DNA of 34,852 bases from positions 1-34,852 of the forward strand of contig CALVTQ010000004.1 of NCBI GenBank assembly GCA_944362695.1, in the 5' to 3' direction. Shown in pieces: positions 19,716 to 23,353 of this stretch. The position numbers and the translations under genes were made by a program. The notes below the pieces were generated by a model that saw only the letters and a list, made by a program, of their open reading frames with translations, did not search any database and had not been told where the DNA came from. Each line of letters starts with the position of its first letter. Position 1 is the stretch's first letter. Source of the stretch: an uncultured Clostridia bacterium. Lineage in GTDB: Bacteria; Bacillota; Clostridia; Christensenellales; Aristaeellaceae.

Positions 19716-20849
19716 TTGATCGATCTGGATCACGCGGCGACGACGCGCCTGTATCCCGAAGCACTCGACGCCATGCTCCCCTTTTTGACAGGCAACCACG
19801 CCAACGCCAGCGGCGCATACGGCGCGGCAAGGCAGACAAGGCGCGCCATCGACGAAGCGCGCGTTGTTGTTGCCAGCTGCATCGGCGCGAAGCCGGGCGA
19901 GATTTTCTTCACTTCCGGCGGCACGGAGGCCGACAACTGGGCGCTGAGCGGCGCGGTTTCGGCGCACCCGGGCAGGCCGCACATCGTGACATCCGCCATC
20001 GAACACCATGCGATTCTCGAGATGTGTACAGCGCTCGAGGAACAGGGCATGCATGTCACGAAGCTGCCCGTCGATCACAATGCCGTGGTCGATTGCGATA
20101 TGCTCATGCAAATTGAAAAAGACGGGGCCAAGCCCGCGCTCGTGTCGGTCATGATGGCCAACAATGAGGTCGGCACGATTGAACCTATACAAAAAATCGC
20201 CGGGACAGCGCACGCGATGGGCGCGCTCATGCATACCGATGCCGTGCAGGCCGTGGGGCATATTCCCGTGAATGTGGACGCACTCGGCGTCGATCTGCTG
20301 TCCATGTCAGCGCACAAATTCGGCGGGCCGAAGGGCGTCGGCGCGCTGTACATCAGGCAAGGCACGCGCATTGGCCGTTTTATGCACGGCGGCGCGCAGG
20401 AGATGGGCATGCGCCCCGGCACGGAGAACACCGCCGGAATCGTAGGCATGGCCAAGGCGCTTGAAATCAGCGTTATTCATATGAAAGAAAATGCCTTGAA
20501 GACCGCCGCCCTGCGCGACAGCCTGCAAGGCGAAATTCTGCGCCGCATACCGGGCGCGCGCATAAACGCCGCGGACGCCGAACGTCTGCCCGGCCATCTT
20601 CATATAACCATAGACAGCATATCCTCCAGCATGCTGCTCATGCGGCTTGACATGATGGGTATCGCCGCGTCTGCCGGCAGCGCCTGTGCTTCCGGCGCTT
20701 TGGAACGCTCGCACGTGCTGCTGGCGATGGGCGCAAGCAGGGACGGTCAGGCCGATCTGCGCCTGACGCTGGGCGCGGACAACACGCCCGAGGAAATCGA
20801 GTCCGCCGTCGCCGCGCTCGAGCGCATCGTGATAAGGAGTCAACCATGA
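19716..20849 (+). CDS. Cysteine desulfurase, NifS/IscS family
   Basis: A PLP enzyme that takes sulfur from L-cysteine as a persulfide for Fe-S clusters or thio-modified tRNA. The 377-residue product begins IDLDHAATT, has the PLP-binding Lys201 in SAHKFGGPKG and the sulfur-carrying Cys324 in GSACASG. The start is TTG 19716, with AGGGAG (19701-19706) 9 nt upstream; no in-frame ATG fits the family N-terminus. No iscU, iscR, sufU or mnmA/thiI neighbour is present, so its acceptor is unknown. It could serve the many radical SAM and Fe-S proteins of this window, but that is only plausible. The stop overlaps the hflX start (ATGA), so the two are translationally coupled. The family call is secure; the exact subtype is not. 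Confidence 0.95.
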   Translation: MIDLDHAATTRLYPEALDAMLPFLTGNHANASGAYGAARQTRRAIDEARVVVASCIGAKPGEIFFTSGGTEADNWALSGAVSAHPGRPHIVTSAIEHHAILEMCTALEEQGMHVTKLPVDHNAVVDCDMLMQIEKDGAKPALVSVMMANNEVGTIEPIQKIAGTAHAMGALMHTDAVQAVGHIPVNVDALGVDLLSMSAHKFGGPKGVGALYIRQGTRIGRFMHGGAQEMGMRPGTENTAGIVGMAKALEISVIHMKENALKTAALRDSLQGEILRRIPGARINAADAERLPGHLHITIDSISSSMLLMRLDMMGIAASAGSACASGALERSHVLLAMGASRDGQADLRLTLGADNTPEEIESAVAALERIVIRSQP

Positions 20850-22618
20850 TATACGGAAACAAAGAGGGCATACGCGATTCGCTGCTGGCGCAGATGGAGA
20901 CGCTGTACGATCTGGATCTCTCGCCGGAGGTGTTCGCCCCGCCGGAGCTTCTTGACGTGCTGGCGGCGTTCACATGCGCCATCAACCGCGAGATCAGCGT
21001 CTACATATCCCGCAGCGGCGCGATACTGGATATCACCATCGGCGGGCAGCGCAGCGTCGAGCTCAAGGACATGCATCTGCGCCGCAACAACAAGCGCCTG
21101 AGCATGATACGCTGCATCCACACGCATCCCGGCGGCAACCCGCAGCTCTCGGACGTGGACCTCAGCTCGCTGCGCTCCATGCGCTTTGACGCCATGGCCG
21201 CCGTCGGCGCGGCGAACGGGCATGCAACCGGCATACAGGCCGCATTCCTCGGCGAATGCATAAACGGCATCAATAAAGTACTTTTGACCGACATCATTCC
21301 CGTCAAAATGCTGCCGCAGCGCGCATGGATGGACGCCATCGACCGTGCGGACGGCGAGGTGCTCATCGGCGTAAGCGAGAGCAACGACGATGTTCGCGAG
21401 CGCGCGTATCTCGTGGGACTGGACAGCCAGAAATCGCTCGACGAACTGGCACGTCTGGCCGAGACGGCGGGCGCGGACGTCGTGGGTTATATGCTGCAAA
21501 AGAAGACCCGCCCGGACACCGCGACCTACATCGGCAGCGGAAAGGCGGAGGAGCTTTCCCTCGACGTGCAGGCCAGGGACGCAGATATCGTAATCTTCGA
21601 CGACGAGCTTTCCGGCGTGCAGATCCGCAATCTGGAGGACGTGCTTCGTGGCGCAAAGGTGCTCGACAGAACGGGCCTGATCCTCGATATATTCGCGCAG
21701 CGTGCGCAGTCGCGCGAGGGCCGCTTGCAGGTCGAGCTCGCACAGATGAGCTACCAGCTGCCCAGGCTCATGGGCCACGGCGTTTCGATGTCCCGTCTGG
21801 GCGGCGGCATCGGCACAAGAGGCCCGGGCGAGACGCGGCTGGAGATGGACAGACGGCGCATCCGCAAGCGCATGGGCGATCTGCGCAAGGAGATCGACGA
21901 GCTGGGCAATCAGCGCAGCCTGCGCAGGGCACGGCGCGAAAAGAACAAGGTGCCGGTCGTAGCGCTCGTCGGATACACCAATGCCGGCAAATCGACGCTG
22001 CTCAACAAGCTGAGCGACGCGGGCGTGCTCGCGGAGGATAAGCTTTTTGCCACGCTCGATCCCGTCGTGCGCACGGTCAAATTCCCGGGCGGCGGCGAGT
22101 TCCTGCTGGTCGACACGGTCGGCTTCATCAGCAAGCTTCCGCACGCACTGGTCGACGCGTTCCGATCCACATTGGAGGAAACGCTGCTGGCTGACCTGCT
22201 TTTGATCGTCTCGGACGGCTCGTCGGACGAGATGCTGCATCAACACGACGTCGTGCTCGAGGTGCTCGCCTCGCTGGGCGCGGCGGACAAACCCGTCATC
22301 GACGTGATCAACAAGGTCGATCTGATGGACAGCCTGCCGCAGTGGCCGGGCGCGCTCCCCATCAGCGCGAAGACGGGCGATGGGCTGGACGAACTGCTCG
22401 ACGCCATCCGCGTCAAGCTTTCCGGCGTACAAAAGCCGCTCCGTGCCGAAATCCCGTATGCGCAGGGCGCGCTGATCGCCATGCTGCATAAGGACGCGAA
22501 GGTGACGGGCGAGGAATACACGGATACCGGCATCGTCGTCACGGCAATGGCGGACGATGAACTCTTTGGCCGTCTGAGCGCGAAGCTCGGACAGGGCGCA
22601 GTCTCGTGGTTACAGTAA
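20846..22618 (+). CDS. hflX: Ribosome-splitting GTPase HflX with N-terminal JAMM-like extension
   Basis: HflX binds 50S subunits and rescues stalled ribosomes under stress. Typical HflX has 370-430 residues; this one has 590. The standard part starts near residue 174 and shows the Gly-rich GGGIGTRGPGETRLE (319-333), G1 GYTNAGKST (376-384), G3 DTVG (423-426), G4 NKVD (489-492) and G5 SAK (507-509). The extra N-terminal part contains Glu49 in REISVYI, and HTHPGGNPQLSDVD (92-105), which fits the JAMM metalloprotease pattern E-Xn-H(S/T)HX7SX2D exactly. It may be a zinc-binding domain related to RadC/JAB; catalytic activity is not shown. I believe long HflX forms occur in other Clostridia, but cannot check here. 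ATG 20846 follows AAGGAG and overlaps the desulfurase stop. Confidence 0.95.
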   Translation: MIYGNKEGIRDSLLAQMETLYDLDLSPEVFAPPELLDVLAAFTCAINREISVYISRSGAILDITIGGQRSVELKDMHLRRNNKRLSMIRCIHTHPGGNPQLSDVDLSSLRSMRFDAMAAVGAANGHATGIQAAFLGECINGINKVLLTDIIPVKMLPQRAWMDAIDRADGEVLIGVSESNDDVRERAYLVGLDSQKSLDELARLAETAGADVVGYMLQKKTRPDTATYIGSGKAEELSLDVQARDADIVIFDDELSGVQIRNLEDVLRGAKVLDRTGLILDIFAQRAQSREGRLQVELAQMSYQLPRLMGHGVSMSRLGGGIGTRGPGETRLEMDRRRIRKRMGDLRKEIDELGNQRSLRRARREKNKVPVVALVGYTNAGKSTLLNKLSDAGVLAEDKLFATLDPVVRTVKFPGGGEFLLVDTVGFISKLPHALVDAFRSTLEETLLADLLLIVSDGSSDEMLHQHDVVLEVLASLGAADKPVIDVINKVDLMDSLPQWPGALPISAKTGDGLDELLDAIRVKLSGVQKPLRAEIPYAQGALIAMLHKDAKVTGEEYTDTGIVVTAMADDELFGRLSAKLGQGAVSWLQ

Positions 22619-22660: not shown

Positions 22661-23353
22661 ATGCTGTCAATTCGTGCACTGGCCGCGATGGCTCTGGGCG
22701 TGAGCATGATGTTCGAATCCTGGGCATTCATCGTGCCGCATCAAAACCCCGCAGACACCCTGATTCTCGTCAACAAATACAACCGCGCGCCGGCCATCCC
22801 CGTGGAACTCGTCAAGCCGAACGTCGCCCCAACGAGGGAGAGCGTGGCCGACAACATCTACATGCGGCCCGAGGCAGCCAAGGCGCTCGAGGAACTCTTT
22901 GCGGGCGCGGCCGAGGACGGCATGACCCTCTACGCGACGAGCGGTTTCCGCAGCTATGCCACGCAAAAGGCCATCTTCAACCGCAAGCTCGAATACATGA
23001 GCGAGGAAGCGGCCAACAAAATCAGCGCCAAGCCGGGCTATTCCGAGCATCAGACGGGCCTGGCGATGGACGTGGAGGGCGAGAGCACAAAGCACATCGG
23101 CCTCGAGGAAGAATTCGGCGACTCACCGGAGGGCATCTGGCTCGCCGCGCATTGCCATGAATACGGCTTCATCATCCGCTATCCCAAGGGCAAGACGGAC
23201 ATCACCGGCTACATCTACGAGCCGTGGCATATCCGCTATGTCGGAAAAGAAGCGGCGCAGGAGATCACCGATCTGGGCGTGACGTTCGAGGAATACATCA
23301 TCAAGATCAGGTCGGACAGGATCAAGTGGCTCGACGGCAGCGTCAGCCCCTGA
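22661..23353 (+). CDS. D-alanyl-D-alanine carboxypeptidase, VanY/M15B type
   Basis: A zinc peptidase predicted to trim the terminal D-Ala from peptidoglycan stem peptides. The 230-residue protein has the family motifs SGFRSY (94-99), SEHQTGLAMDV with zinc ligands His130 and Asp137, and EPWH with Glu187 and His190. The N-terminus (residues 4-24) is a hydrophobic stretch after a single Arg, compatible with a signal or anchor, so it should act outside the membrane. ATG 22661 follows AAAGGAT. It lies 42 bases after hflX; the gap has a small TGCCGG/CCGGCA hairpin without a T-run, and the hflX end carries GGTTAC-A-GTAACC. No van resistance genes are near, so a housekeeping cell-wall role is more likely than glycopeptide resistance. 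Confidence 0.92.
   Translation: MLSIRALAAMALGVSMMFESWAFIVPHQNPADTLILVNKYNRAPAIPVELVKPNVAPTRESVADNIYMRPEAAKALEELFAGAAEDGMTLYATSGFRSYATQKAIFNRKLEYMSEEAANKISAKPGYSEHQTGLAMDVEGESTKHIGLEEEFGDSPEGIWLAAHCHEYGFIIRYPKGKTDITGYIYEPWHIRYVGKEAAQEITDLGVTFEEYIIKIRSDRIKWLDGSVSP

Follow-up and report, generated by a model that had tools for sequence, protein, structure and literature searches.

Our analysis of a 34,852-nucleotide stretch of DNA from an uncultured Clostridia bacterium (contig CALVTQ010000004.1 of assembly GCA_944362695.1; the whole stretch is called the window below) revealed an hflX gene whose product combines a complete HflX GTPase with an N-terminal domain homologous to JAMM (MPN+) proteases. 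The five residues of the JAMM site are present in this domain and are conserved in nearly all related copies. The explanation we favour, with about even confidence, is that residues 1-172 form a true JAMM domain of the RadC/Prok-JAB kind whose site is intact, predicted to carry out zinc-dependent hydrolysis of peptide or isopeptide bonds in a ribosome-bound protein. We rate JAMM-HflX as a new domain architecture composed of known parts.

The hflX open reading frame (ORF) occupies positions 20846-22618 of the forward strand and encodes 590 amino acids from an ATG start; it is the only full hflX copy in the genome. The start is considered sound because AAGGAG lies just 5' of it and because the ATG overlaps the stop codon of the upstream, NifS-like gene by four bases (ATGA). 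The product was assigned to HflX by the equivalog model TIGR03156, which covers residues 194-523 with 444 bits against a cut-off of 216.75, and the HflX domains of Pfam (PF13167, PF16360, PF01926, and PF19275) were all above cut-off. As the HflX models begin only at residues 194 (TIGR03156) and 196 (PF13167), residues 1 to approximately 185 constitute an extra region, in agreement with the proposal of an earlier note on this DNA that the first 175 or so residues do not belong to ordinary HflX. This region comprises a folded domain (residues 1-172) and a low-confidence linker (173-185). The segment REISVYI (residues 48-54) contributes E49, which is followed by H92, T93, and H94, seven residues, S102, two residues, and D105; the full pattern E-Xn-H(S/T)H-X7-S-X2-D is thus present, with each residue exactly where the earlier note had placed it.

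Conservation of the site was assessed in sets of increasing size. The first comprised 99 HflX proteins, nearly all of them long forms (59 loci from two genome searches and 40 hand-chosen regions). The commonest residue was found in 98 of them at E49 and G66, and in 97 at each of H92, T93, H94, S102, and D105. The E/H/H/S/D site was complete in 97, the exceptions being L070, in which the domain reads EYYLT, and L086, which has no comparable N-terminus. Alignment A1 was formed by 53 diverse rows of this set; the window protein is among them, and we omitted L070, which is degenerate, and L086, which could not be aligned. Just seven of its columns are fully invariant, namely E49, G66, H92, T93, H94, S102, and D105, while R89 and P95 are nearly invariant; the hypergeometric value for all five JAMM positions falling among 7 invariant columns of 182 is 1.3e-8, a figure favoured by the omission of L070. 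The widest set contained 194 non-identical N-termini, drawn from the 230 of 260 HflX loci that matched the A1 profile at E<1e-8 (identical sequences dropped, near-duplicates kept), with the weaker match L276 added. A complete site was found in 187 of the 194, which is an upper bound, as complete copies are picked up more readily by a profile that was itself built from such copies. Free variation of the Glu, His, and Asp positions was thus not seen. Basic residues beside the site were also frequent in this set (R79 in 150 copies, R80 in 160, R84 in 145, and R89 in 189). In shuffled sequence, the pattern H[ST]Hx7SxxD occurred in 5 of 200,000 cases for residues 1-180 and in 20 of 200,000 for the whole protein; judged from the alignments, conservation is the stronger evidence that the motif is real.

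Homology to JAMM proteins was evident from profile comparisons. Against the PDB, the A1 profile retrieved an AMSH-like protease (E=0.0022), followed by STAM-binding protein and further JAMM entries, in a list that also includes unrelated ones, e.g., ribosomal protein S19 at E=0.16. Alignment of A1 by hhalign with 18 RadC domains, 7 of which had originally been found by A1 itself so that the similarity is somewhat favoured, scored 95.5% (E=1.4e-8) and placed E49 on the RadC Glu and HTHP on HNHP, in line with the likeness of the Glu-bearing strand to RadC/JAB domains that had been suspected from the sequence. The negative controls scored 0.7% (reversed RadC), 0.4% (HflX ND1), and 0.2% (HflX G domain). 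The RadC set was obtained from 19 loci, the window genome's own RadC (L104) being dropped as lying outside the pattern used. In a phylum-level sample of 299 genomes, the A1 profile gave 102 matches, 54 of them strong (E up to 6.5e-9, ORFs of at least 522 aa) and 48 weak (ORFs of 196-276 aa). All seven weak matches fetched carry the HNHPSG box of RadC, while all 43 strong matches fetched contain the domain and the HflX core in one ORF. The RadC JAB domain (PF04002) and the HflX N-terminal domain have in common the order Glu, then HxHP[SG]G...S..D; however, the HflX domain has HTH where RadC has HNH, an Arg at position 89, and its fusion to HflX. A separate RadC gene was present in 12 of the 12 long-form genomes searched. 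The complete EXnH(S/T)HX7SXXD motif and the order of elements are also those of AMSH-like protease, Rpn11, CSN5, AfJAMM, and PfJAMM1, which are mostly eukaryotic or archaeal and act on ubiquitin-like substrates; zinc protease domains of the JAMM kind remove ubiquitin in human cells.

The predicted structure is consistent with this relationship. AlphaFold2, run on residues 1-185 with 46 alignment rows, gave a model with a predicted local distance difference test score (pLDDT) of 87.6 and a predicted template modelling score (pTM) of 0.84. In the model, helix 33-46 precedes E49, which stands directly before strand 50-55; H92 and H94 are on strand 88-95, and S102 and D105 at the start of helix 103-112. 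Values of pLDDT below 50 occur inside the domain only at 68-77 and in the linker at 179-185. In a Foldseek comparison with the PDB, the first row was 9is6, with the title Plant-Complex-C, which leaves the matched subunit unstated, and rows 2-12 contained entries for the COP9 signalosome, the 26S proteasome, PfJAMM1, Cap3 with CD-NTase, and SRU_2040 (2kcq). The JAMM/MPN match is plain for PfJAMM1 and for 2kcq, which is named Mov34/MPN/PAD-1; in the COP9 signalosome, 26S proteasome, and Cap3 entries, the matched chain is presumably the JAMM/MPN subunit. The element order is the one described for AfJAMM, in which beta 2 bears E22, beta 4 the His ligands, and alpha 2 the Asp, and in which residues 41-60 are disordered (PMC300881). 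The predicted fold therefore appears JAB-like rather than unrelated, with a moderate match that is consistent rather than strong. A full-length model (pLDDT 79.8, pTM 0.55) contained an HflX part matching cryo-EM structures of 50S-bound HflX (best match 8a57, E=8.9e-42); as the linker has pLDDT below 50 at residues 177-181, this model does not predict the placement of the JAMM domain.

The features of the gene and of its upstream neighbour are listed below, with the evidence for each.

19716..20849, forward strand: aminotransferase class V gene upstream, its stop overlapping the hflX start; a lineage neighbour, outside the system (Pfam Aminotran_5, 243 bits)
20846..21361, forward strand: JAMM/JAB-like domain of HflX, residues 1-172 (AlphaFold2 model, Foldseek, hhalign to RadC)
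20990..20992, forward strand: codon of E49, predicted general acid-base (conservation; aligned with the Glu of RadC)
21044..21109, forward strand: residues 67-88, a basic, partly low-confidence loop that precedes the HTH strand and corresponds in position to the disordered loop of AfJAMM (pLDDT; R79, R80, and R84 often kept)
21110..21112, forward strand: codon of R89, outside the JAMM motif (kept in 189 of 194 copies)
21119..21127, forward strand: codons of H92-T93-H94, with H92 and H94 as predicted metal ligands (motif and conservation)
21149..21151, forward strand: codon of S102, predicted to stabilise the reaction intermediate (motif and conservation)
21158..21160, forward strand: codon of D105, predicted third metal ligand, in the first turn of helix 103-112 (motif, conservation, and model)
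21362..21400, forward strand: linker, residues 173-185 (pLDDT below 50 at 179-185 in the N-terminal model and at 177-181 in the full model)
21401..22618, forward strand: canonical HflX core with ND1, helical, GTPase, and C-terminal domains (TIGR03156 and Pfam; full-length model compared with HflX-50S structures)

Several observations weigh against the favoured explanation. The N-terminal part of the window protein, searched alone, matched a single Pfam family, PF14464 (Prok-JAB), over residues 78-113 (the HTHP..S..D region), with 16.7 bits against a gathering score of 25, and PF04002 was not listed for this protein at E up to 10; with the window protein under the curated cut-offs, membership in RadC or Prok-JAB proper is rejected. 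A single-sequence search of the PDB with the window domain gave one irrelevant match (E=0.54). The best Foldseek E-value was 1.5e-3, none being at or below 0.001, and template modelling (TM) scores reached 0.42 by query length among the matches listed (0.42/0.57 for PfJAMM1). For RadC, the closest family, a 2003 paper stated that no function was known (PMC300881). Finally, seven of the 194 copies are without the H-x-H pair (L070, L216, L217, L220, L221, L224, and L276). In HMMER alignments, L070 keeps E49, and L216 and L217 keep E49, S102, and D105 with both histidines replaced. These seven domain-like N-termini without the site, three of them still with E49, suggest that the domain has a use beyond metal chemistry and that such chemistry is not the sole reason for keeping those residues.

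Other features of the degenerate copies and of the family searches complete this picture. E49 is also lost in L220 and L221, and the sites of L224, which aligns only to residue 91, and of L276, a weak match (E=0.0015), are unsure. None of the seven copies is short of just one site residue; the loss of the site is nevertheless not all-or-none, as E49 is still present in three of the seven, and S102 and D105 in two. Among the 53 members of A1, Pfam matches at E up to 1 were found to PF14464, the best single-family match, in 35 and to PF04002 in 24, the best PF04002 match having E=2e-4. The best match to the JAB models of PADLOC had E=8.4e-4, matches of the domain in PHROGs were weak only, and NCBIfam contained nothing relevant for it. 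The suggestion that the domain had so far gone unassigned thus holds at the cut-offs of Pfam and NCBIfam.

In JAMM enzymes, two histidines and an aspartate hold the zinc, while the glutamate holds a water molecule and is the predicted acid-base, and the serine is predicted to stabilise the intermediate (PMC300881). By the favoured explanation, a JAMM domain that a short flexible linker connects to the complete HflX would bind one zinc via H92, H94, and D105, E49 would serve as the acid-base, and S102 would stabilise the intermediate. A peptide or isopeptide bond would be hydrolysed in a protein on, or bound to, the large ribosomal subunit, and the cut would happen when HflX docks on the 50S subunit to split vacant, stalled or hibernating ribosomes; address and timing would come from HflX, and the cut from the JAMM domain. 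A reasonable candidate for the substrate, by analogy, is HPF or another intersubunit protein. We advance more tentatively, as a possibility on the doubtful side, that many members of the Clostridia and neighbouring classes possess a splitting GTPase with a built-in deubiquitinase-type protease which would cut a specific large-subunit protein in step with splitting. Equally tentative is the idea that its target would be a ribosomal protein, a factor of hibernation or some tag as yet unknown, making it a bacterial counterpart of recycling coupled to isopeptidase editing.

What is described of HflX on the ribosome bears on this proposal. Canonical HflX proteins (TIGR03156; E. coli, Listeria HflXr, and GTPBP6) share with the window protein the complete GTPase, i.e., the ND1, helical, G, and C-terminal domains, but are without the N-terminal JAMM domain, the E. 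coli and Listeria proteins being 414-426 residues long; the HflX proteins in the matched ribosome-complex structures are short forms or have a short extension. HflX binds the intersubunit face of the 50S subunit, according to a review (PMC12493154) that also mentions extensions in a number of Clostridium and Paenibacillus species; in mycobacterial HflX, the N-terminal extension contacts uL16, H38, and the H69-71 junction. The mycobacterial extension likewise precedes ND1 but is given as 39-58 residues (PMC12493154), in contrast to about 185 with a folded domain in the window HflX. By analogy, the JAMM domain may lie near the uL16/H38/H69-71 region of the 50S subunit. The words JAMM and metalloprotease are absent from PMC12493154.

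Alternative explanations differ in how they treat the site and its target. A chance motif in an unrelated extension would agree with the weak single-sequence scores in Pfam and the PDB; however, given the conservation, the profile comparisons, and the predicted fold, we give it next to no weight, and on the aligned sequences chance origin is excluded. A serious although unlikely alternative is a structural or regulatory zinc domain, which would bind metal without cutting and serve as an additional element for ribosome binding or for sensing, comparable to the mycobacterial extension on uL16/H38. The copies that lack the H-x-H pair while keeping a domain-like N-terminus, some with E49, S102, and D105, speak for it, and the often-kept R79, R80, R84, and R89 beside the site would suit RNA or ribosome contact; in addition, N-terminal extensions of HflX are said to matter in mycobacteria (PMC12493154). 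However, E49 and S102, whose counterparts are not direct zinc ligands in AfJAMM (PMC300881), are about as conserved as the ligands, and both would be dispensable if the zinc site were purely structural; catalysis is therefore likelier than a structural zinc site, although the retention of E49 and S102 in L216 and L217, which lack the histidines, tempers this conclusion. Alternatively, the domain could be a remover of hibernation factors that acts on HPF or a comparable intersubunit protein, either cutting or loosening it, at the splitting of 70S or 100S ribosomes and so makes wake-up irreversible. We consider this improbable, since we know of no HPF cleavage and take S. aureus HflX to be a short form. 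In its favour, the S. aureus protein dissociates HPF-dimerised 100S ribosomes, reactivation of which is said to need both splitting and HPF removal (PMC7196661), and HflXr, HPF, and E-site tRNA occur together in one 70S structure, according to the title of 8uu7.

The coupling to cleavage of a nascent chain proposed in the earlier note, or cleavage of peptidyl-tRNA during ribosome rescue, has lost ground. The helical domain of HflX reaches the peptidyl transferase centre, near which a tethered hydrolase could meet the chain, but the same review describes HflX as not binding ribosomes that carry peptidyl-tRNA (PMC12493154), and we regard this role as quite improbable. Least credible among the substrate proposals is the processing of a sulfur carrier or ubiquitin-like protein, in which the domain would trim a ThiS/MoaD-like protein in connection with the upstream NifS-like gene. 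Prokaryotic JAB proteins do occur in ubiquitin-like and sulfur-carrier operons (PMC1779556), and hflX overlaps the NifS-like gene in the window. Among 81 stretches (the window and 80 close relatives, with hflX placed in 68), a member of the NifS-like cluster was found in 53; among the 68, there are 47 cases in which it lies upstream of hflX in the same orientation. However, when the three genes on either side of hflX were inspected by eye, from their first residues, in 12 distant JAMM-HflX loci, no such gene was seen; on this ground the link was rejected, and the domain is far wider spread than the neighbourhood.

The gene context in general does not name the substrate, as no common neighbourhood was found in the 12 distant long-form and eight short-form loci, inspected in the same way. 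We take the upstream aminotransferase class V to be a NifS/IscS-like cysteine desulfurase; two other families recurring in the 81 stretches, in 18 and 29 loci, resemble NifU and an Rrf2 regulator, respectively, in their first residues, names that are likewise our assumption. In L255, one of the eight short-form loci, a gene that looks like NifS lies three genes away from hflX. An IMPACT/YigZ gene (PF01205) lies within about 5 kb of hflX in L238, L239, L240, L242, L243, L248, and L253, which include long- and short-form genomes, and PF01205 and DUF1949 were present in the three such genes scanned; with 5 of 12 long-form, 2 of 8 short-form, and 0 of 80 close-relative loci, it was rejected as a specific partner of hflX. 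In the window, hflX is followed on its 3' side by genes for a VanY-type D-alanyl-D-alanine carboxypeptidase (22661-23353) and a putative cyclase (PF04199; 23411-24037).

JAMM-HflX is common among the genomes sampled. Among 60 relatives, an HflX match (E up to 1e-60) was found in 44; the alignment starts at residue 1 or 2 in 39 of these and at residue 178 or later in the other five. In the class sample, HflX (E up to 1e-50) is present in 211 of 291 genomes and the N-terminal domain (E up to 1e-8) in 90, in line with the earlier expectation that long HflX forms may be common in Clostridia; four of the 90 domain matches are in ORFs shorter than 450 aa (155, 336, 372, and 447), one of them at a contig end by its coordinates. 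In the phylum sample, HflX is present in 228 of 299 genomes, and none of the 54 strong domain matches is a stand-alone domain. A quick maximum-likelihood tree of 107 HflX cores, built without the N-terminal domain and with no more than two rows for each combination of family and state, required 9 changes for the long form, compared with 29.5 in shuffles, and 3 for the degenerate state, compared with 6.8, although well-supported branches force only 2 and 1 changes, respectively. A single old origin of the long form with later losses is possible. The degenerate copies, which are pseudoenzyme forms, occur at three places in this tree: f56, f182, and a group of f139, f181, and f189. A phage origin was rejected: one of three pattern matches in viral contigs is a relative that encodes full-length HflX, likely host DNA. 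This 15-kb contig (L185), filed as viral, encodes full-length JAMM-HflX and is probably bacterial DNA.

Other arrangements of hflX were also observed. A second fusion joins HflX in one open frame to a tRNA-dihydrouridine synthase domain (L274, 1195-3414, forward strand, Pfam Dus 327 bits; L275, 2-2317, reverse strand, judged by eye); open frames of 740-830 aa were found in four genomes of one family. L253 contains two adjacent short HflX-looking genes (435 and 434 aa), with two HflX matches in that genome.

A search of the open-access literature, which left subscription papers and preprints outside its range, showed among the papers listed neither a report linking HflX to a JAMM, JAB or MPN domain nor an assay of a JAMM-HflX hydrolase, and the word HflX is absent from a broad survey of prokaryotic ubiquitin-like and JAB proteins (PMC1779556). 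If approximately one-third of the sampled class genomes (90 of 291) carry a conserved JAMM site on HflX, ribosome splitting in these bacteria may be tied to a hydrolase. A JAB domain of the RadC type would then gain a defined cellular address, and what is now a gap in annotation, the plain label 'GTPase HflX', becomes a question that can be tested at the bench.

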